Assembly (NCBI RefSeq): GCF_022548875.1
Contig: NZ_JAKZEW010000035.1
Location: 725-48,939, forward strand
Direction of reading: 5' to 3'
Origin: Glycomyces sp. L485
Lineage (GTDB): Bacteria > Actinomycetota > Actinomycetes > Mycobacteriales > Micromonosporaceae
Length of the DNA stretch: 48,215 nt
The notes beneath the pieces were generated by a model. It made no database searches. It saw nothing but the letters and a program-made list of their open reading frames with translations, and was not told where the DNA came from. Below are positions 7,198 through 22,817 of the stretch, piece by piece. Within the stretch, counting starts at the first letter, position 1; each line of letters opens with the position of its first letter. The position numbers and the translations under genes are program-made.

Positions 7198-8007
7198 CTA
7201 CCGGCGGCCCTCGGCGAGGCGCACGAGGTGGGCGTGCGCGTACTCGCACACCACCGCGTGGCGGTAGACCGCCGCGGGCACGTCGGTGTTCGAGTCGGCG
7301 CGGATGGCCAGGTCGCCGCACTGCCACCGCAGGAACGTCGGATCACCGGTGAGGTCGGTGAGGATCGACAGGATCGAGTCGTCGAAGCGCATGGAGTGGA
7401 CGGCCCGCCGGTACTCCTCGGGCGTCAAGCACAGCGCGAACGGCAGGTTCATCAGGCACAGCGCGGTCTGGATGTCCAGGTTGAGCACGCGGCGGCGGTG
7501 CGGCTCCGGGTCGAGCGGCGGCATGTCCAGGCCCGAGAAGTCCAGCCCCCGCGCCCGGACCGGCCCCGGGCCGAGCGCAGCCAGGACGTCGTAGACGTTG
7601 ATGTCGTGCTCGATCACCGCCCTGTCGCCGAGCCCGGCGAGGTCGAGCGGCCGCAGCCCCACCGGCTCGATCCGGGTCCCCTCGGCGTTGCGGACGATGA
7701 AGTTCAACAGGTTCGTCTCGATGACGAAATGCCGGATCAGCAGCTCGACGGCGAGCGGGGACACGAAGCGGCGCAGGAACCACAGGCACAGGACGTCCAT
7801 GGCCGTGTGCGCGGTCCAGCGGATCGGCGTGAGCCGCTTCGCGATCACGATGAGCACCGCGAGCACCCGCGAGACGGGCCTGGCGACCGGGTAAAGCCAG
7901 GTGCGGGTCCAGCGGCGCTGATCGTCGGCGACCATGCGGGCCACCGCCGGGTCGAGCGGCTTGGCCGGATCGGCGACGACCGCGTCCCACATCGACGGGT
8001 CAGACAT
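7198..8007 (-). CDS. Protein of unknown function, coupled to the ketosynthase fusion gene
   Basis: A 269-aa protein I do not recognise. Its ATG at 8007 overlaps the last 8 bp of the ketosynthase-fusion gene, so translation is probably coupled and the two products are likely to work together. Two hydrophobic stretches (VSRVLAVLIVIA and AMDVLCLWFL, residues 38-75) could bind the membrane. Conserved-looking polar patches are RHFVIETN, IEHDINVYDVL and, near residue 200, MRFDDSILSILTDLTGDPTFLRW. The His/Glu/Asp clusters might bind a metal, but no known motif is evident. The start was chosen over an upstream in-frame ATG because the latter would run deep into the preceding gene. Confidence 0.75.
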   Translation of the reverse strand: MSDPSMWDAVVADPAKPLDPAVARMVADDQRRWTRTWLYPVARPVSRVLAVLIVIAKRLTPIRWTAHTAMDVLCLWFLRRFVSPLAVELLIRHFVIETNLLNFIVRNAEGTRIEPVGLRPLDLAGLGDRAVIEHDINVYDVLAALGPGPVRARGLDFSGLDMPPLDPEPHRRRVLNLDIQTALCLMNLPFALCLTPEEYRRAVHSMRFDDSILSILTDLTGDPTFLRWQCGDLAIRADSNTDVPAAVYRHAVVCEYAHAHLVRLAEGRR

Positions 8008-9814
8008 GGTCGAGCTCCTCCAACTGGAGGGCGTAGAGCCGCGCGACGACCTTGGCGGTCTTGACGATCGCGTCGGCAGCGGCCTCGTCGACACGGTCGG
8101 AGGCGAGGATCGCCTGGAGCTTCGCGAAATGGTCGTCGTCGGCTTCACCGTGATAGGCGAGGAAGGCGACCTGGTCGTCCCCGAGGCCCAGCAGGTCCTT
8201 GAACCGCCGCGCCCACTCGGCGGCCTTGCCGGTGCCGAGGCCCTCGATGATGAACATCGCCCCGAGCAGTCCGACCGGGTCGGGTGCGCTCGCGGTGTGG
8301 AACATATAGGCCGACAGGGCCTCCGAGCCGATGTTCTTCTCGCCCGAGCGGATCTCGTCGAGCGAGCCGCCGCAGGCCACGAAATCCCGTTCGATCATCA
8401 TGAAGTCGCGGTGCTCCTCGGCGGCGTGGCCGATCGCGGCGCTGCGCAGATCGAAGTTCTCCACCGAGAAGTTCGACGCGGCCCGCGAGATCCACCGCGC
8501 GCCGTCGGCGACCTGCTGGCGCAGGTTGAACAGCAGCCTCCGGTAGTCCTCGATCGTCGCCGATCCGTCGGCGAGGCGGCGCATCACCGGGACCTCGTCG
8601 AGCCGCCGCTCGAAGTCCTCCCATACCGCCTCCAGCCGGGCGAAGACGGTCCCGCGCGCAGGAGCGGCCTCGCGAACCGGCGCCGGGGCCGGCGCCTCCC
8701 GATCGGCGTCCACGCAGGTCAGGTGCGCGAATGCGAACGAGAAGCGTCCCGACTCGGGCACGGCCAGCAGGATCGTCTGGCCGGGTTCGAAACGACCCGT
8801 CCGCCAGCACTCCTCCAAGGCGATGAAGATCGAGGCCGCCCCGGTGTTGCCGCGCGACTCCAGATTGGAGAACCACTTGTCGGTGTTCAAGGCCGAGCCG
8901 GAGGAGGCGATCTGGTCGAAGATGATGTCGCGGAAGGCGTTCGTGCTGTAGTGGCAGAGCACGTGGTCGAGCCGGTCGAGGTCGACCAGGCCCAGACGCG
9001 TCAGCTCCTTGAACTCGCGCAGCCCCGCCTCGGCCAGCGCACCGAGCGCGGCGGTGTCCTGGCGCAGCCGCATCATCCCCGCGTTCTCGGCCGCCGAGGC
9101 GGTACCGAGGTCCTGCCAGGTCTGCCCGGCCACCGGCTCGCCGCCGTCGCCCATCCCGGCGCGCATGCACACTTGGTGCTCGTGCGCGAGGGAGACGCCG
9201 CGGACCCAGTCGACGCGCAGCGACGGCCGGTCCGGGCGCGGCCGGGGCTCGACGACTACCGCGCCCGCGCCGTCGGAGAGCATCCACCGCAGGAAGTGCG
9301 CGTCGGCCTCCCCACGGTTGAACCGCGAGTGGCGCAGCCACCGGCTGGACAGCTCCGAGCCGACCACCGCGGCGCGGCGCAGGTCGCCGAGCCGGACTTT
9401 CGCGGCGGCCGCGTCGAGCGCAGCGAGACTCGACGCGCACACCCCGGCGGCCGACAGCAGCTGCATCGGGCCGCCGCCGAGCCGCCCGTGCACCATCGAC
9501 GCGAAGCCCGGCACGAGCAGGTCCCCTTGGGTGGTAGCGGTAGCGAGCATGTCCAGCTCGCCCGCGCCGAGACCGCGGTCGGCAAGTGCTTCGCGAAGCG
9601 CCGCGGCGGCCAGCTCCTCGTTCAGCTCGGTCGTGCGGCCCTGCGCGTCGAGCGCATAATGGCGCGAGGTGATCCCGTTGGCGGCCAGAATTCGGCGGCG
9701 CAGCCGGTCGCCGCGCTCGTCGACGCCGCCGAGACGCCCGGCGATCTCGTCGTTCGCGACCGGCGGCCCAGGAAGGTACGAGCCGGCGGCGGTGATGAAG
9801 GCGGTCTCAGTCAT
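8000..9814 (-). CDS. Ketoacyl synthase III fused to haem-oxygenase-like di-iron domain
   Basis: A 604-aa two-domain protein. Residues 1-365 form a KAS III/FabH-like thiolase fold with the triad Cys126 (SAAGVCASS), His288 (CHYSTNAF) and Asn323 (SRGNTGAAS), which should condense an acyl starter with a malonyl-type extender. After an Ala/Pro-rich linker (372-388), residues 390-604 resemble the TenA/PqqC-like 'iron-containing redox enzyme' group: EEH at 466-468, Glu524 (FIIEGLG) and H555-x3-D559-x2-H562, the spacing seen in haem-oxygenase-like di-iron oxidases such as UndA and CADD. The first-helix ligands are less clear. The start is uncertain; the ATG at 9814 fits the FabH N-terminus, but GGAGG is only 1 nt before it. 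The product is unknown; an oxidised or shortened beta-ketoacyl-derived lipid is a guess. Confidence 0.88.
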   Translation of the reverse strand: MTETAFITAAGSYLPGPPVANDEIAGRLGGVDERGDRLRRRILAANGITSRHYALDAQGRTTELNEELAAAALREALADRGLGAGELDMLATATTQGDLLVPGFASMVHGRLGGGPMQLLSAAGVCASSLAALDAAAAKVRLGDLRRAAVVGSELSSRWLRHSRFNRGEADAHFLRWMLSDGAGAVVVEPRPRPDRPSLRVDWVRGVSLAHEHQVCMRAGMGDGGEPVAGQTWQDLGTASAAENAGMMRLRQDTAALGALAEAGLREFKELTRLGLVDLDRLDHVLCHYSTNAFRDIIFDQIASSGSALNTDKWFSNLESRGNTGAASIFIALEECWRTGRFEPGQTILLAVPESGRFSFAFAHLTCVDADREAPAPAPVREAAPARGTVFARLEAVWEDFERRLDEVPVMRRLADGSATIEDYRRLLFNLRQQVADGARWISRAASNFSVENFDLRSAAIGHAAEEHRDFMMIERDFVACGGSLDEIRSGEKNIGSEALSAYMFHTASAPDPVGLLGAMFIIEGLGTGKAAEWARRFKDLLGLGDDQVAFLAYHGEADDDHFAKLQAILASDRVDEAAADAIVKTAKVVARLYALQLEELDHV

Positions 9815-9858: not shown

Positions 9859-9889
9859 GTACTCAAACCGGTGCGCGAACGTACTCAAA
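9859..9889 (-). promoter_or_regulatory. Two TTTGAGTAC direct repeats (MacR-like half-sites)
   Basis: On the minus strand TTTGAGTAC occurs at 9889-9881 and again at 9867-9859, 22 bp (two helical turns) apart. They lie between the response-regulator stop and the ketosynthase-fusion start. The MacR regulator of Streptomyces coelicolor is reported to bind the inverted repeat TGAGTAC-N2-GTACTCA; here each half-site lacks a good second half. Control by the adjacent regulator is inferred. Confidence 0.55.
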
Positions 9890-10526
9890 TCCCGCCGTCG
9901 ATCCCGTGCTCGATCGCATAGCGCACCAACTGGGCCCGGTTGTGCAGCTGCAGCTTGCTGAGCGTGCGCTGCACATGGTTCTGGACGGTCCGGTGCGACA
10001 GGTACAGCCGCGCCGCGATCTCCTTGTAGGTCAATCCCTTCGCGACCAGGCGCAGGACCTCGGTCTCCCGCTCGGACAGACTCGGATGCCCCTCGGGCGC
10101 TTCGGCGTTCGCCAACCGCCGATACTCGCCGAGGACCATGCCCGCCAGGCCCGGCGTGAACACCGCGTCGCCGGCGGCGACCCGCTCGACCGCTTCCACC
10201 AGCTCGGGGGCCGACGCCGACTTCACCAGATAGCCGCGCGCGCCCGACTTCACCGCCTCCAGGACGTCGGCCGACTCGCCGCTGGCCGACAGCACCAGCA
10301 CCTTTGTCGGGCAGTCCTCGCCGAGCCCCCGCAGAACCTCCACACCAGACAGATCCGGCAGCTGCATGTCGAGGATCGCCACCTCGGGGCCCATCCGCCG
10401 GATCGCTGCCAGCGCCGCGCGCCCCTCGCCCACGCTCGCCAGCACCCGATGCCCGGCCTCGGTCAGGTCCCGGCTGATCGCCTCCCGCCAGATCGGATGG
10501 TCATCGACCACTATGAGCGTCGCCAT
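9885..10526 (-). CDS. NarL/LuxR-family response regulator (MacR-like)
   Basis: A 213-aa DNA-binding response regulator. The receiver domain (1-120) has the acidic pocket VVDDH at 7-10, phospho-acceptor Asp53 (ILDMQLPD) and the lysine in GYLVKSAS. The C-terminal LuxR-type helix-turn-helix begins at LSERETEVLRLVAKG and contains RTVQNHVQRTLSKL. The gene overlaps the end of the kinase gene by 26 bp, so the two are co-translated. The cognate kinase has a MacS-type N-terminus and the TGAGTAC repeats just downstream resemble MacR sites, so I expect it to control the ketosynthase-fusion operon. Confidence 0.93.
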   Translation of the reverse strand: MATLIVVDDHPIWREAISRDLTEAGHRVLASVGEGRAALAAIRRMGPEVAILDMQLPDLSGVEVLRGLGEDCPTKVLVLSASGESADVLEAVKSGARGYLVKSASAPELVEAVERVAAGDAVFTPGLAGMVLGEYRRLANAEAPEGHPSLSERETEVLRLVAKGLTYKEIAARLYLSHRTVQNHVQRTLSKLQLHNRAQLVRYAIEHGIDGGI

Positions 10527-11634
10527 CGGTCCTCCCCCGCGAGCGCGGCACCCGCATCTCGACTTCCGTTCCCTGACCGGGAACCGACTCGACGGCGACC
10601 TTGCCGCCGAGCTCGGTTACCCGGCCCTCGATCGACTGGGCCACGCCCAGGCGGCCTTCGGCCTCGGCCTCGGCGAGGCGCCCCGGCTCGATCCCCGGGC
10701 CGTTGTCCCGCACCGTCACCGTGACCGACTCGGCGTCATCCTCGACCAGCAGCCACACCCGCGTCGACGGCGGACAGTGGTCGCGCACGTTGTCGAGCGC
10801 GCTGGCGACCGCCGCGGCGAGCTGGTGGGCGGCGTGCGCGGGCAGCCGCACCGGCACGGCCGGGGCGGCGATCGTCACCGCGTCTGCGGAGTGGCGGCCG
10901 AGCAGTCCGCGCACGTCGCGCTGCCCGTCGAGCGGGTGGCGGTAGGACTCGGAGGTGATGAGCGAGCGCAGCGACGCCTCCTGCTCCCCCGCGAGGCGGC
11001 CCAGTTCGGCGGCTTCGCCGCCGATCGCGTTGCCGCGCCGCTGGACCAGCGCGAGCACCTGGAGCACCGAGTCGTGGATGTCGCGCGCGAGCCGTTCGCG
11101 TTCGCGTGCGGCGGCATTGCGCGCGGCGGCCTGGCCCAGGCGCTCCTCGGCCTCGACGCCGAGCCGCGTCAGGTGGCCGACCATGAGTCCGGTCAGGACG
11201 AGAAGCACCGCCTCGCTGAAGGTGTTCTCGCTGACGCCGCCGCGGAAGACCGTGCCGACGCCGGCGACGATCGCCCCGGCGACGACGCCGCTGCGCCTTC
11301 CCCGGGCCACCGCCCAGGCCAGTACTGCGCCGGCGAGCCACGGCCCCACGGAGACCGGCGTCGTCCGCCCCTCGACGGCGAACACCCAGGCCGAGGCGAT
11401 GACCGCGGCGACCGTGACCGCCAGGTCGATGTAGAGCAGAGCGGGACGGTAGCCGCGGTGGGTGTACAGGTAGCCGACCGACCCGGTCCATGCCGCGATC
11501 GCCGCCACGAGCAGGAAGGCGAGGGCCGGACGCGCGAGAGAGTCGAACATCAGAGCGCAGAGGACCACCGGATAGCCCAGGGCGGCGAACCGGAAGACCG
11601 CGATCGCGCGCCGCAGTTGCGTCTGAATGCCCAC
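10501..11634 (-). CDS. MacS-type membrane sensor histidine kinase
   Basis: A 377-aa kinase. The N-terminal part (10-155) has about five to six membrane helices with the GYLYTHRGYRPALLYIDL segment typical of the actinobacterial MacS (DUF5931) group. A HisKA_3 dimerisation domain follows with His187 in RDIHDSVLQVLALVQRR, then an HATPase domain with the DNGPGI box near residue 314. The start is GTG at 11634. No extracellular sensor domain exists, so the signal is probably within or near the membrane. It is first in a leftward operon with the response regulator, ketosynthase fusion and the unknown gene, and is divergent from the patatin gene. Confidence 0.92.
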   Translation of the reverse strand: MGIQTQLRRAIAVFRFAALGYPVVLCALMFDSLARPALAFLLVAAIAAWTGSVGYLYTHRGYRPALLYIDLAVTVAAVIASAWVFAVEGRTTPVSVGPWLAGAVLAWAVARGRRSGVVAGAIVAGVGTVFRGGVSENTFSEAVLLVLTGLMVGHLTRLGVEAEERLGQAAARNAAARERERLARDIHDSVLQVLALVQRRGNAIGGEAAELGRLAGEQEASLRSLITSESYRHPLDGQRDVRGLLGRHSADAVTIAAPAVPVRLPAHAAHQLAAAVASALDNVRDHCPPSTRVWLLVEDDAESVTVTVRDNGPGIEPGRLAEAEAEGRLGVAQSIEGRVTELGGKVAVESVPGQGTEVEMRVPRSRGRTDGDAHSGR

Positions 11635-15544: not shown

Positions 15545-15640
15545 CCCGCCCACGCCGATGCCGTGCGGGGTGAGTTTCGCGGCGATGACCGCGCCCGACG
15601 TGACCGCTTCGAGGCAGCCGGTGTTCCCGCAGCTCAGCCG
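15545..15640 (-). pseudogene. ROK-family (glucokinase/repressor) remnant
   Basis: A short minus-strand frame reads LSCGNTGCLEAVTSGAVI, matching the zinc-binding signature CGxxGCLE of ROK kinases and repressors. Nothing of the N-terminal ATP-binding or helix-turn-helix part is nearby; the upstream side runs straight into the 3' end of the ABC transporter gene. It is therefore a decayed fragment left by deletion. Confidence 0.65.
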
Positions 15641-17391
15641 TGCCAGCGCCGCCACAGCGCGGCGTAGGAGCCGCCGCGCGCGAGCAGTTCGTCGTGGGAG
15701 CCGAGCTCGGTGATGCGTCCGCGCTCGACGACCGCCACCCGATCGGCGTCGTGAGCGGTGTTCAGCCGGTGTGCGATCCCGACCACGGTGCGACCGGCGA
15801 GGATCCGGCTGAGCCCTTGCTCGATGCCGCTGGCGGCGTTGGGACTGAGCATCGAGGTCGCCTCGTCCAGCACGATCACCTCCGGCTTGGCCAGGATCAC
15901 CCGCGCCAGCGCGACCTGCTGGATCTCCGCGGGTGTGAGCGCGTGGTCGCGTCCGCCCACTTTGGTCTCCAGTCCGTCCTCCAGCCGCCCGGGCAGATCA
16001 CCGGCGCCGACGGCCTCCAGCGCTTCGAGCAGGTGGCCGTCCTCCGCATCCGGCGCGCCGAGCCTCAGGTTCGAGGCGAGCGTGTCGTTGAACAGGTGGT
16101 ACTCCTGTGTCGCGAGGATGATGAACCGACGCAGCGTGTCCTCGTCGATCGTCCCGGCCTCGGCCCCGCCGAGGTGCACGGCCCCGCGATCGGGCCGGTG
16201 GATCCCCGCCATTAGACGCGCCAGTGTGGACTTGCCCGCGCCGGTCGGGCCCACCAGGGCCAACCGCTCGCCTCGCCGCAGTACCAGGTCGACGCCGTGT
16301 AGGACCGGCCGTTCGGGGTCGTAGCCGAAGCCGACGCCTTTGAGTTCGATGATCTCCTCCGCCTCGCGGTCCGGCAGCCCGCCGCCCTCGATCGCGTTCT
16401 CGGCCTGCACGCCGACCAGGCGCGCCAAGGAGACGCCGCCGATCTGGACCTGCTGCAGCGAAATGATCATCTCTACGGCCGGGGCGACCGCGAGCTGCAT
16501 GATGAGCACGACCGTGGTCGTCTCCGCCAGTGACAGCCGCCCGGTCGCCGTCAGGTACCCGCCGACGACCAGTACCGTCAAGCACGGCAGGAACGCCGAG
16601 AAGTCCAGGACTGGAAACAGCACCCGCTGCAGTCTCATCATCCGCATCCGTGCGGCGTACTTGCGGTCGATGGCCTGGTCGGTGAGGGCGACGCGCCGCC
16701 GTTGCCAGCCGAACGCCTCGACGGTCTTGATGCCGTCGATCGTCTCGGCCACGGTCGCGGTCAGGTCGGCGCCGGCCGCCTGGACGGCGTGGAACGCCTC
16801 GAATGCACGCTTGAAGTACCAGCGCAGCACCAGGAGCATCGGTGGCACCGCCACCAGGATCGTCAGCCCCAGCACCGGCGAGACGACGAACGCGCCCGCG
16901 ACGTAGACCAGCACCGAGACGAAGCCGGTGAAGAACTTCGGCGCGGCCGAGGTGATCGAGTGCTGGAGCTGGCCGACGTCCAAGTTGGTCCGTCCCAGCA
17001 GGTCACCGGTTCCGGCGGCCTCGATCTGCCCGGGAGGCAGCGCGAGGACCCGCTCGAGGAACTCCTCTCGCACGTCGGCACCGACCTGCTCGCTGAGCAC
17101 GGCCAGCTGCCGGTGGGCGGCCCAGGCCAGGCCTGCCTGGACGAGCACGGAAGCGAGGATCAGACCCAGCTGCCACGGCAGATCCGAACCGGGGTCGGGG
17201 CCGCCGGCGGCCCAGGAAGCGAAGCCTTCGGTCATGATGCCGACGACATAGGGCGCGCCCATCGCCGCGAGCGCCGCCATGATCGTCAGCGCCACGATGA
17301 GTGCGAACCGCCATCGGTGACGGCCGACGAGCTCGCGCAGGTAGGCACGGGTCTGCTTCGGAGCGGCGACGGGCAGCTTCTGGATGATCAT
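15634..17391 (-). CDS. ABC exporter half-transporter with canonical Walker A/B but degenerate signature
   Basis: A 585-aa membrane protein: six transmembrane helices (1-320), then a nucleotide-binding domain. Walker A GPTGAGKST (381-389), Walker B VIVLDE with catalytic Glu510, and an H-loop GIAHRLN are intact. The signature, normally LSGGQ, is LTPAEIQQ (485-492). Its start overlaps the end of the partner gene by 4 bp (ATGA type), and the partner has the opposite set of defects, so the two must form a heterodimer with one working ATP site. Exported substrate is unknown (drug, peptide or lipid are possible). Confidence 0.93.
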   Translation of the reverse strand: MIIQKLPVAAPKQTRAYLRELVGRHRWRFALIVALTIMAALAAMGAPYVVGIMTEGFASWAAGGPDPGSDLPWQLGLILASVLVQAGLAWAAHRQLAVLSEQVGADVREEFLERVLALPPGQIEAAGTGDLLGRTNLDVGQLQHSITSAAPKFFTGFVSVLVYVAGAFVVSPVLGLTILVAVPPMLLVLRWYFKRAFEAFHAVQAAGADLTATVAETIDGIKTVEAFGWQRRRVALTDQAIDRKYAARMRMMRLQRVLFPVLDFSAFLPCLTVLVVGGYLTATGRLSLAETTTVVLIMQLAVAPAVEMIISLQQVQIGGVSLARLVGVQAENAIEGGGLPDREAEEIIELKGVGFGYDPERPVLHGVDLVLRRGERLALVGPTGAGKSTLARLMAGIHRPDRGAVHLGGAEAGTIDEDTLRRFIILATQEYHLFNDTLASNLRLGAPDAEDGHLLEALEAVGAGDLPGRLEDGLETKVGGRDHALTPAEIQQVALARVILAKPEVIVLDEATSMLSPNAASGIEQGLSRILAGRTVVGIAHRLNTAHDADRVAVVERGRITELGSHDELLARGGSYAALWRRWHG

Positions 17392-19112
17392 CGGGTGACC
17401 GCCTCTCGGTACTCGGCCTGCCGCAGCAGCTCGGCGTGGGTGCCGGCCGCGACCCCGTCGGCGACGAACTGGACGCGGTCGCAGACGGCCAGCAGCTGGG
17501 GGGAGTTGGTGGCGATCACGGTGGTCCGACCGCGACGGTGGCGCACCAGGCGTTCGGCGATGCGCGCCTCGGTCTGGGCGTCGCAGGCGCTGGTCGGATC
17601 GTCGAGGAGGAGGATCTCGGGCGCGGCCAGCAGCGCGCGGGCGAGCAGCAGTCGCTGGCGTTCGCCTCCGGAGAAGTTGCGTCCGCGCTCGCCTACCAGT
17701 GTTTCGAGGTCATATCCGCTGTCGGGGACCTCGTCGCTTTCGACCAGGGAGAGGTCGACGCCGACGATGTCGACAGCAGAGGCGGTGTGGACGGCCCGCA
17801 TGATGTCCGCGTCGGTCTGCTCGCCGTCCACGTCGAGCTGCTCGCGCAGCGGCCCGCTGAACAGTTGAGCGTGGGTGTCCAGCAGGTGGATGCGCGAGCG
17901 CACGATCGCGGTGTCGAACTCGCTCAAGGGGATCCCGCCGATCGTCGCGGGCGTTGCGTCGCCGTGGCCGCCGAGCCGGTCGAGCAGGTCGTCGGCGCCC
18001 ATGCCGTCTTTGACGGCGACGCCGGTGACGAGCCCGGCCTCGGCGGTGACGCCGGTGCCCGGATCGTGAAGCGTCGCTTCGCTCGGCCAGCCCCGCATCC
18101 CGGATGCGACCGGTCCGTCCTCCTCGGGGATGCCGTGGACCCGGCGGGCGGCGACGATGGCGCCGGTGAGCGCGTCGACGCTCATGATCGCGAATCCGAG
18201 GGGGCGGGCGAGCGCGACGAGGTAGCCGAACAACGCCACGAACTGCCCGACGGAGATGACGCCGTCCAAGGTCATGCGCGCGCCGAGCCAGAGGATAACG
18301 AGCAGGAGCGCACCGGGCAGGGCCAGTCGCGTGAATTCGAGCCAGGCGGCCGCCGTCCCGACGCGCACCCCCGCCAGGCGGGTCTTCTGGGAGGCTGCGC
18401 GGTAGCGGCCGGTGAAGTGGGCCTCGCCGCCGATGCCGCGCAGTACCCGCAGCCCGGCGACGGCGTCGACGCCGATGCCGGTCTGCTCGCCGAAGCGTTG
18501 GCGGCGCACGCCGCCGCGCGACTCCAGGAGCAGGAACAGCGGGCGCAGGATCATGAACATGGCCGGCAGGCCCAGGCCGACGGCGAGGACGAACCACCAC
18601 GACTGGGTGGCCAGGATCGCCAGCGCCAGCGCGAATGCGAAGACCGAGGAGATCAGCCGGCCGGTCATCATGGACAGGAAGCTGAGCGAGGTGGCGTCGG
18701 AGGCCGAGACCGAGACGAGCTCGCCGGCGTCGGCGCGCTGCTTGAGCGGTGCCCCTACGGCGACGACCGCGTCGACCAGGCGCCGTTGGACGCGGAACTC
18801 GGTGTCCATGAAGGCGTACATCATGTAGATGAAGCTGATCACGCCGGTGAGCGTGGTGAGGCCGATGAGGACGGCCAAAGCGCCTGACCACCAGTACAGG
18901 GCGGCGCGGTCGTCGGCGACGAGGCCGTCGTCGACGGCGCGGCCCACGACGTAGGGGATGAACTGCTGGCAGCCGAGGAACACGCAGGTGACGATCGTGT
19001 TCACCAGGACGAGCTTCCGCTGGGCGCGCAGCAGCCAGCCGATGACGGCGAGGGCGGGCCTGGAGTGGCCCAGCGGCTTCCCGGGGTCGCGGGGTGGGGT
19101 GAATCGTGCCAT
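17388..19112 (-). CDS. ABC exporter half-transporter with lost Walker A and H-loop
   Basis: A 574-aa partner of the next gene. Six membrane helices occupy about 20-310. The nucleotide-binding domain retains a good signature FSGGERQR (480-487), but the Walker A region (about 363-376) reads VAVKDGMGADD with no Lys-Ser/Thr, the catalytic Glu after Walker B is Asp505, and the H-loop His is replaced (VIATNSPQ). It should not hydrolyse ATP itself but supply the signature to the partner's Walker A. Start: ATG 19112, with GGAG four bases upstream; a GTG at 19127 is possible. Confidence 0.9.
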   Translation of the reverse strand: MARFTPPRDPGKPLGHSRPALAVIGWLLRAQRKLVLVNTIVTCVFLGCQQFIPYVVGRAVDDGLVADDRAALYWWSGALAVLIGLTTLTGVISFIYMMYAFMDTEFRVQRRLVDAVVAVGAPLKQRADAGELVSVSASDATSLSFLSMMTGRLISSVFAFALALAILATQSWWFVLAVGLGLPAMFMILRPLFLLLESRGGVRRQRFGEQTGIGVDAVAGLRVLRGIGGEAHFTGRYRAASQKTRLAGVRVGTAAAWLEFTRLALPGALLLVILWLGARMTLDGVISVGQFVALFGYLVALARPLGFAIMSVDALTGAIVAARRVHGIPEEDGPVASGMRGWPSEATLHDPGTGVTAEAGLVTGVAVKDGMGADDLLDRLGGHGDATPATIGGIPLSEFDTAIVRSRIHLLDTHAQLFSGPLREQLDVDGEQTDADIMRAVHTASAVDIVGVDLSLVESDEVPDSGYDLETLVGERGRNFSGGERQRLLLARALLAAPEILLLDDPTSACDAQTEARIAERLVRHRRGRTTVIATNSPQLLAVCDRVQFVADGVAAGTHAELLRQAEYREAVTR

Positions 19113-19396
19113 GCGCTCCGCTCTCACAATCGCCGTCGAGGGCGAGCGAACGCTATCAAGACTCGGTGGCCGCTGGGAATCCGTTTTTCGGCACGTGGAC
19201 CGCTGGGCCCGTCCAGGCAGAGCTGCGCACTACGGACGCGTAAACCCCGGCCGATCCGCTCAGGCGAGTCTCGGGATGACTGCGATCGCGCCCTCCCTGT
19301 CGTCGACCACCTCAAGATGATCAAACCTCGAATTTCTAAGAAGGCTCCTGATCCAATGACCCGATCGGGAGCCGACTCCGATGAGATGTCGGAAAA

Positions 19397-21518: not shown

Positions 21519-22817
21519 TCAACGATTGACTGCGGATTCGCGGGCGCGCGCCAGTTGCACCCGCATGTCCTTGACGGCCCTCAAGGTGCCCCCGACCGTG
21601 CCGGTCACCTTGCTCCTGCCGACCCTCGGCCGATACGGGACCGGGGTCTCGGCGATGCGCCACCCGTCGAGCCCGGCGCGCAGCACCATTTCGAGCGGCC
21701 AGCCCGAGCGCCGGTCGGCCAACCCCAGACCGAGCAGCGCCTCGCGGCGGGCGGCCCGCATCGGGCCGATGTCGGTGACCTCGGCGCCGCACAGGCGCCG
21801 CACCCGCCGCGCCAAATACCGGTTCGCGAGGCGGTTGTGCAACGTGATCGCCCCGGCCTCAGGGTCGCGCGCGCCGAGCGCCAGATCGGCCTCGCCCCCC
21901 AGCACCGGTTCGCAGACCCGGCTCAGATCACCCGGATCGAGCGAGGCGTCGCAGTCCATGAACGCCACGACCGGCGCGGTCGCGGCGGCGAGCCCCGCAT
22001 AGCAGGCCGCGCCGAAGCCGCGCCGCGACTCGGACACCACCTCGGCACCGAGCGAGGCCGCGACCTCGGCCGAGCCGTCGTCCGAACCGTTGTCGACCAC
22101 GATCGGCCGATAGCCCTCGGGCATCCGCTCCAGCACCCACGGAATCCCCTCACGCTCATTGAGCACCGGCAGCACCACGTCCACCCTCGCCGTACTGAGC
22201 AACTCCCCGACCCGCCGCGCGGTGCGCGTGCGCGGCGCGAGCCCGGCGACCGCCAGCGCGTCCTCGGCCTCGTCAAGGTCGCGCAGCACCGGCAGGTCGG
22301 CGACGGTCAACCCCAGGGCGTGCAGCTGCTTCCGCTGGATCAGACCGGTGTCGTTCCTGCTCATCGGCACGTTCCGGAACGCATCGGGATGCGGCCGGGC
22401 CATCGCCAGCGCCCACCAACCGCCGTCCTCTGCCAGCCCCAGCGCCGCCTCGTACCCGCCGTCGACCACGACGGCCAACGACTCGTCGAGCAGCTCGGGC
22501 GTCACCTGCGGCGTGTCCATACCGATCTGCAGACCGGGACCGCCCGAGTGCGCCCACGCCGCGGCCAGCCGCTCGTTGAACGTCCCGCTCACCTGCGCCA
22601 CCACCTCGAAACCCTCGGGGAGCCAAGGCCCCGGCTCGCCCTCGAGCGCCACGATGCGCCTGTCGGCACCGCAGGCGGCGACGGCTTCGAGCGTGTCCGC
22701 GAGCGACGCCTCCGCGACCGACGCGGCCTCCACATCGGTCAGTGGGGGAGAGAGCCTGGTCTTCACCCGGCCGGGCACCGGCGACTTGGCCAGGACGAGG
22801 AGATGGGTCCGCTGCAT
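21519..22817 (-). CDS. DUF2064-glycosyltransferase family 2 fusion protein
   Basis: A 432-aa two-domain protein. Residues 1-205 are DUF2064 (LVLAKSPVPGRVKTRLSPPL at 7-26), a nucleotidyl/glycosyltransferase-like fold also annotated as TIGR04282. Residues 210-432 are a GT2 domain (VVLPVLNEREGI, VVDNGSDDGS and the metal-binding DCD in VAFMDCDASLDPGDL). The two are more often separate genes. The fusion suggests that an activated sugar is made or checked and then transferred. It is divergent from the OmpR/kinase pair at 22931, followed by a membrane GT-C-like protein and an epimerase: a glycan or glycolipid cluster. Confidence 0.88.
   Translation of the reverse strand: MQRTHLLVLAKSPVPGRVKTRLSPPLTDVEAASVAEASLADTLEAVAACGADRRIVALEGEPGPWLPEGFEVVAQVSGTFNERLAAAWAHSGGPGLQIGMDTPQVTPELLDESLAVVVDGGYEAALGLAEDGGWWALAMARPHPDAFRNVPMSRNDTGLIQRKQLHALGLTVADLPVLRDLDEAEDALAVAGLAPRTRTARRVGELLSTARVDVVLPVLNEREGIPWVLERMPEGYRPIVVDNGSDDGSAEVAASLGAEVVSESRRGFGAACYAGLAAATAPVVAFMDCDASLDPGDLSRVCEPVLGGEADLALGARDPEAGAITLHNRLANRYLARRVRRLCGAEVTDIGPMRAARREALLGLGLADRRSGWPLEMVLRAGLDGWRIAETPVPYRPRVGRSKVTGTVGGTLRAVKDMRVQLARARESAVNR

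Follow-up and report, generated by a model that had tools for sequence, protein, structure and literature searches.

A putative three-part biosynthetic module of an StlD/DarB-like ketosynthase, an altered-ligand haem-oxygenase-fold oxidase and DUF6999

Described systems and the Glycomyces locus

According to PMC5515871, the ketosynthase DarB yields 4-carboxy-2,5-dialkylcyclohexane-1,3-diones, and DarA is listed as an aromatase in PMC3949708 (here and below, papers are cited for the passages concerned). UndA, a haem-oxygenase-like dimetal oxidase (HDO), is described as a fatty acid decarboxylase (PMC13108848). The published HDO motif E-H-E-H-(D/E)-H, with E and H in helix 1, E in helix 2 and H-(D/E)-H in helix 3, occurs in ~85% of HDO groups (PMC11363339). 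StlD and DarB are ketosynthases from the pathways to stilbenes and dialkylresorcinols in bacteria. Here we analyzed a gene of Glycomyces sp. L485 that combines an StlD/DarB-like ketosynthase and a haem-oxygenase-like domain in one polypeptide, together with the DUF6999 gene that overlaps it. The window, i.e. the whole analyzed stretch, comprises 48,215 nucleotides of contig NZ_JAKZEW010000035.1 (positions 725 to 48,939). Model confidence is given as predicted local distance difference test (pLDDT) values. The main features are:

8000..9814, minus strand: ketosynthase/haem-oxygenase-like fusion gene, 604 aa; start ATG 9812-9814, stop 8000-8002
8705..9814, minus strand: StlD/DarB-like ketosynthase domain, residues 1-370 of the fusion
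8648..8704, minus strand: inter-domain linker, residues 371-389 (residues 381-387 with pLDDT <50)
8000..8647, minus strand: haem-oxygenase-like domain, residues 390-604 of the fusion
7198..8007, minus strand: DUF6999 (PF22523) gene, 269 aa

The fusion comprises 604 aa when read from the ATG at 9814 and 616 aa if the first ATG is used. Pfam finds ACP_syn_III and ACP_syn_III_C followed by Haem_oxygenas_2, in agreement with a preliminary description of this DNA that had proposed one polypeptide with a ketosynthase and a haem-oxygenase-like domain. The same description noted an overlapping 269-aa gene of unknown function. The overlap was confirmed at 8 bases, and a purine-rich, ribosome-binding-like stretch precedes the start of the second gene; as to family, its product is assigned to DUF6999 by Pfam (281.5 bits, E 7e-84; cut-off 27 bits).

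The fusion is a single-copy gene in the 4.4 Mb, 151-contig genome. Both its open reading frame and its domain pairing are beyond chance: of the relatives listed, the nearest is a 604-aa protein from Glycomyces with 90% identity, and PF14518 (Haem_oxygenas_2) is present in all 120 listed homologues. At an E-value of 1e-20 the fusion query matches 4500 of 7992 scored candidates, the fused state being recorded for the 120 listed.

Conservation and distribution of the three genes

Judged from gene order and domain content, the StlD/DarB-like ketosynthase, the predicted haem-oxygenase-fold oxidase with altered ligands and DUF6999 form a conserved module of three parts, presumably a biosynthetic one. 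When genomes were scanned with DUF6999 as anchor and the best 80 of the 83 confirmed stretches were taken, 79 loci showed the order ketosynthase, oxidase, DUF6999, the exception being L099; the coupling of the fusion to its 269-aa partner, for which a neighbourhood search had been suggested at the outset, holds. Fusion itself is optional, with the ketosynthase and oxidase fused in 33 of the 79 loci and encoded by separate neighbouring genes in 46. Fused loci were found in Glycomyces, Catellatospora, Plantactinospora, Phytomonospora, Trebonia, Dactylosporangium, Longispora, Asanoa and three metagenome-assembled genomes (MAGs), and split loci in Microbacterium, Agromyces, Demequina, Cellulomonas, Isoptericola, Pseudactinotalea, Leifsonia, Serinibacter and Schumannella. 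The linker of the fusion lies at about the site of the stop and new start in split loci. With Pseudoalteromonas, whose own set is split, as the root of the tree, the actinobacterial loci with separate genes group in a single clade that branches from within the fused loci, a pattern that one fission following an early fusion would give.

Since the first scan was anchored on DUF6999, a second sampling used the fusion as query. At 1e-60, nine of 394 genomes of the class match: six have both ketosynthase and oxidase, with DUF6999 adjacent in all six, and three have only a ketosynthase, at ~40%. The six comprise the Glycomyces genome itself and five others, some possibly repeating organisms of the DUF6999 scan. 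The set is patchy. DUF6999 occurs in three of 296 phylum genomes, this one included, and in six of 150 genomes from one family, but within the genus Glycomyces 18 of 22 genomes (again counting this one) have a strong match to the fusion. A Pseudoalteromonas plasmid bears a split set with 46% identity over ketosynthase plus oxidase and 26% over DUF6999, and the named sources of DUF6999 relatives include Vibrio, Rheinheimera, Halomonas and Endozoicomonas. In Caulobacter vibrioides, which was among 14 control genomes, PF22523 and PF14518 both give matches, at genome level only.

The oxidase domain and its candidate metal ligands

PF14518 matches the fusion with 40.1 bits as a whole protein and 44.0 bits as the domain alone, above the curated cut-off of 28.9, which bears out the haem-oxygenase-like assignment first made for the C-terminal domain. 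The match begins at profile position 53, past the first-helix motif; 16 of 17 diverse oxidase domains are matched, the sole miss being Pseudoalteromonas. The confident model of the fusion (mean pLDDT 87.5) has helices that include 421-448, 451-480, 516-542, 550-570 and 577-603, and from profiles and secondary structure the domain probably has the haem-oxygenase fold. Searched with a profile made from the 17 domains, the PDB yields entry 3dde (1.3e-10), a protein of the haem-oxygenase fold, whose first-helix E-E-A-G-H aligns onto E466-E467-H468-R469-D470. The candidate ligands are:

8426-8428, minus strand: H463
8414-8416, minus strand: E467
8405-8407, minus strand: D470
8243-8245, minus strand: E524
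8150-8152, minus strand: H555
8138-8140, minus strand: D559
8129-8131, minus strand: H562

The pattern (Y/F)-H-x3-D-x2-H was found in all of 199 sequences (120 listed homologues plus 79 loci, with overlapping organisms), as were H463, E467 and D470 (194 by pattern, five by reading). We jointly aligned the 17 domains of this family with 50 other PF14518 references, 48 of them from a PF14518 search and two from Vibrio plasmids. All 50 references have Glu467, His470, Glu524, His555 and His562, with Asp (46) or Glu (4) at position 559. Among these six positions the present family departs at 470 alone, with Asp in 17 of 17, and position 463 is His in all 17 versus two of the 50 references. An earlier comparison with five references, partly chosen for their E-E-x-x-H look (three of the 48 extracted and the two from Vibrio), was repeated with all 50. 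Family and references are separated only by alignment, the crude E..H pattern test being non-discriminating (strict form in 47/50 references and, via other E/H pairs, also in 34/199 family members).

Set against the published E-H-E-H-(D/E)-H motif, the domain differs at the second position (Asp470) and keeps the other five. The preliminary description had named E524, H555, D559 and H562 and compared their spacing with UndA and CADD. These residues are present as numbered and invariant in 20 aligned fusions, and the comparison stands for the last helix and Glu524 only; the motif was incomplete, with the first-helix ligands unnamed, and in that helix Asp470 replaces the usual His. The alignment points to a probable metal site of two His and four carboxylates (2H/4C) or one assisted by His463. 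The 2-His/4-carboxylate set is otherwise known from ferritin-like diiron enzymes. Three further residues were rejected as ligands: His468 (Gln in three MAG loci), Glu466 (Ala in P0082, P0106 and P0118) and Glu475 (Gln in L053).

The change from His to Asp could also mean that the site is not dinuclear iron. The domain would then be mononuclear, dependent on Mn or devoid of metal, and would serve the ketosynthase as a scaffold or for binding. Such a reading would account for the replacement of the first-helix His in 199/199 sequences versus its presence in 50/50 references, and it has parallels in the ~9% of HDO groups without a strong motif prediction, which may use other motifs or no metal, and in PqqC, which has no metal cofactor (PMC11363339). 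We nevertheless consider it improbable, as the remaining ligand positions are all invariant, the replacement Asp is also a carboxylate, and His463, two helix turns before, is likewise invariant.

The ketosynthase domain and its relatives

The catalytic triad of the ketosynthase is encoded at:

9437-9439, minus strand: catalytic C126
8951-8953, minus strand: catalytic H288
8846-8848, minus strand: catalytic N323

These three residues occur with the numbering originally given and are unchanged across the 20 aligned fusions, as are E524, H555, D559 and H562. The domain combines the StlD fold with the Cys-His-Asn triad of StlD/DarB-type ketosynthases and is 33.5% identical to StlD; a fold search with the whole fusion (Foldseek, VIA) gave matches reaching the ketosynthase part only. 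On the housekeeping FabH model TIGR00747 the fusion scores 75.7 bits, below the cut-off of 292.1 bits, and a separate FabH-like protein (L002) in the same genome has 25% identity to the ketosynthase. The initial label of β-ketoacyl-acyl carrier protein synthase III (KAS III) stands as to the ACP_syn_III family and the triad, but the domain is nearer StlD/DarB than plain KAS III. In a ketosynthase tree, whose root is unreliable because a very long branch places the FabH pair inside the actinobacterial sequences, the ketosynthases of the module were not recovered as one clade, and that of Pseudoalteromonas groups on the StlD side (support 0.889).

StlD-like ketosynthases without the oxidase were found in genomes G150 and G589 and on three Streptomyces plasmids, where the next gene encodes a different protein of ~320-343 aa. 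On one Streptomyces plasmid (L107:5706-13107) and in G150 (L174:5363-10684), the ketosynthase is followed by a 321- or 343-aa protein inside rows resembling polyketide synthase clusters. The two proteins share 47% identity over 286 columns; neither has a Pfam or NCBIfam family, and a PDB search with the one from the Streptomyces plasmid was also empty. This partner occurs in two of three ketosynthase-only genomes and was not found in any of the 26 genomes known to hold the fusion, the split pair or DUF6999 (17 for which only the fusion was shown, three with DUF6999 only, namely G747, G785 and G813, and six with the whole set). The swapped partner would be in line with an aromatase role for the oxidase. 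G150 carries a PF14518 gene elsewhere in its genome, which argues against a fixed partner rule.

The DUF6999 protein

Among 34 DUF6999 sequences of Actinomycetota and Gammaproteobacteria, with identity down to 23%, 21 columns are invariant, including D29, R92, H93, E97, N99, N107, H134, D135, D178, R200, D209, H250 and E255. The pattern of His and acidic residues suggests enzymatic activity, possibly metal-dependent. The confident model consists almost entirely of helices (pLDDT 88.5, predicted template modelling score 0.87), and a fold search against solved and viral folds gave no significant match. In Cellulomonas sp. KH9, a second DUF6999 stretch (L099:10001-10633, residues 58-268) lies in a locus with no ketosynthase or oxidase.

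Proposed pathway and alternatives

Domains, gene order, conservation and ligand pattern are read from the sequence, and from them we infer substrates, products and chemistry. A two-step route to a lipid-derived product, as the preliminary description suggested, is plausible, and the product of the module is probably a small lipid-like molecule. By analogy with the described systems, we tentatively propose, as a possibility that falls short of being probable, that the ketosynthase, the tethered oxidase and DUF6999 make a dialkylresorcinol-type ring by oxidative decarboxylation of a DarB-type product. The ketosynthase would join β-ketoacyl and α,β-unsaturated acyl thioesters, like DarB and StlD, and its product would be a 4-carboxy-2,5-dialkylcyclohexane-1,3-dione or a close analogue. 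With O2, the oxidase would then strip the carboxyl carbon and a neighbouring hydrogen, as UndA does on fatty acids, leaving a ring double bond whose tautomer is the dialkylresorcinol. One oxidative decarboxylation would replace a separate aromatase of the DarA/StlC type, and DUF6999 may modify, protect or deliver the product. Such an UndA-like step would explain why the oxidase is tied to an StlD/DarB-like ketosynthase. We are markedly less confident of the full claim, which appears unlikely as a whole: a second, O2-dependent route to dialkylresorcinols (or a related ring), in which a 2-His/4-carboxylate haem-oxygenase-fold enzyme tethered to an StlD/DarB-like ketosynthase aromatises the product of that ketosynthase through oxidative decarboxylation, DUF6999 being an additional enzyme.

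Several observations weigh against the decarboxylation proposal. The oxidase lacks the first-helix His and may for that reason not perform UndA-like chemistry, and the profile of 17 oxidase domains did not find the UndA, CADD and SznF entries in PDB. On the NCBIfam StlD/DarB ketosynthase model NF005293 the fusion scores 319.2 bits, below the 450-bit cut-off (372.1 bits for the Pseudoalteromonas homologue and 492.1 bits for a Prevotella protein). Among the genes of the set, none was recognised as coding for a carrier protein, a thioesterase or DarA. The ~320-343 aa partner of oxidase-free ketosynthases may be DarA-type, to go by its look, an assignment that Pfam, NCBIfam and PDB did not confirm. 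In G424 and two Bacteroidota plasmids neither partner was recognised beside the StlD-like ketosynthase; a partner is therefore not obligatory. The UndA-type step on a ring follows from chemical reasoning, and we know of no precedent for it.

The two activities might also work in the reverse order, the oxidase desaturating an acyl chain to provide the α,β-unsaturated partner for an StlD/DarB-type ketosynthase, whose product would leave as a cyclohexanedione. We regard this order as rather unlikely, as ordinary fatty acid synthesis is generally known to supply enoyl thioesters already. Its appeal is that HDOs such as PolF and MboA are capable of desaturation (PMC13108848), that an enoyl-type partner is what DarB and StlD use in their condensation (PMC5515871), and that a fusion is compatible with either order of steps. 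An OleA-like scheme, in which the ketosynthase would make a β-keto acid from two fatty acyl groups and the oxidase would decarboxylate it to an unsaturated ketone, appears more doubtful still.

Surroundings and regulation

Two regulatory genes lie upstream of the fusion gene:

9885..10526, minus strand: response regulator with LuxR-type DNA-binding domain, just upstream of the fusion gene
10501..11634, minus strand: MacS-family sensor kinase (415 bits, cut-off 300)

Fifteen of 17 Glycomyces loci (one of the 17 having <3 kb upstream) and the sole Phytomonospora locus have the kinase and regulator immediately upstream, on the module's strand. In Catellatospora, the kinase is upstream in five and the regulator in all of six loci, while in Trebonia the two-component pair lies downstream of the module. 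In the remaining 54 loci the kinase has no match; the upstream flank is short in a few of them. From this distribution the pair looks like lineage-specific control.

The position of the module just behind a MacS-type two-component pair would also suit a stress-protective factor, made or constituted by the module, instead of an exported product. HDO-type DtpC of Acinetobacter offers a parallel, in that desiccation survival depends on its predicted metal ligands (PMC13232832). This is very unlikely in our view: the operon partner of DtpC is katE, not a ketosynthase (PMC13232832), the presence of a ketosynthase argues for biosynthesis, and the pair is adjacent in some lineages only.

Beyond the two-component pair, no gene family recurs near the module across many genera, as judged with a crude gene finder from the first 25 clusters, after exclusion of clusters made of shadow frames. 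DAHP synthase, methyltransferase and ketopantoate-reductase-like neighbours were rejected as module parts, with no relative at E 1e-20 in the 79 loci (flanks <=10 kb). Elsewhere in the window, we noted a transposase (PF13701 DDE domain, 138 bits) at 1360-2805, near the contig end; an adjacent pair of ATP-binding cassette half-transporter genes (ABC_membrane plus ABC_tran) at 15634-19127, minus strand; and a minus-strand frame at 21519-22817 with DUF2064 and family 2 glycosyltransferase domains. In other genomes, a 185-aa protein without a Pfam match (L105:9439-9996) lies directly upstream of the split Pseudoalteromonas ketosynthase, and two Vibrio plasmids (L106:3876-7479 and L108:2880-6414) have a PF14518-type oxidase in a row of T_hemolysin-annotated, AMP-binding, oxidase and short-chain dehydrogenase/reductase genes.

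Significance and comparison with known systems

The initial observation is real and more general than first noted, and the site of the oxidase differs from the textbook one; the function we infer. Searches of the open-licence PubMed Central literature, covering mainly the best-ranked results, found no description of a ketosynthase-HDO fusion or of the module, consistent with the early statement that no characterised example of the fusion was known; the name DUF6999 was not found in that literature either. A set kept as strictly as this (79/80 loci), in Actinomycetota and on a Pseudoalteromonas plasmid, probably makes a specific product, which no annotation encountered states. If the oxidase is active with Asp470, the haem-oxygenase fold tolerates a ligand set beyond the three-His/three-carboxylate (3H/3C), 3H/4C and mononuclear sites of a review (PMC13108848). 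The module is a first functional setting for DUF6999, and the Caulobacter vibrioides matches could bring it into a model organism, making it testable.

With UndA, CADD, FlcE and 3dde, the oxidase domain has in common PF14518, the helix-1 Glu, the helix-2 Glu and the helix-3 H-x3-D-x2-H. It differs from them in being fused to, or encoded beside, a ketosynthase, and in having Asp470 plus the extra invariant His463, two helix turns earlier, where they have the first-helix His. SznF resembles the fusion as a multidomain biosynthetic enzyme with a haem-oxygenase-like oxidase domain, but has a cupin domain instead of a ketosynthase, and a 3H/4C site (PMC13108848). The 269-aa partner is a plain member of DUF6999 (PF22523), a family without assigned function. 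Finally, whereas StlD/DarB ketosynthases have a recognised aromatase partner, the ketosynthase described here is fused to, or stands beside, an oxidase instead.
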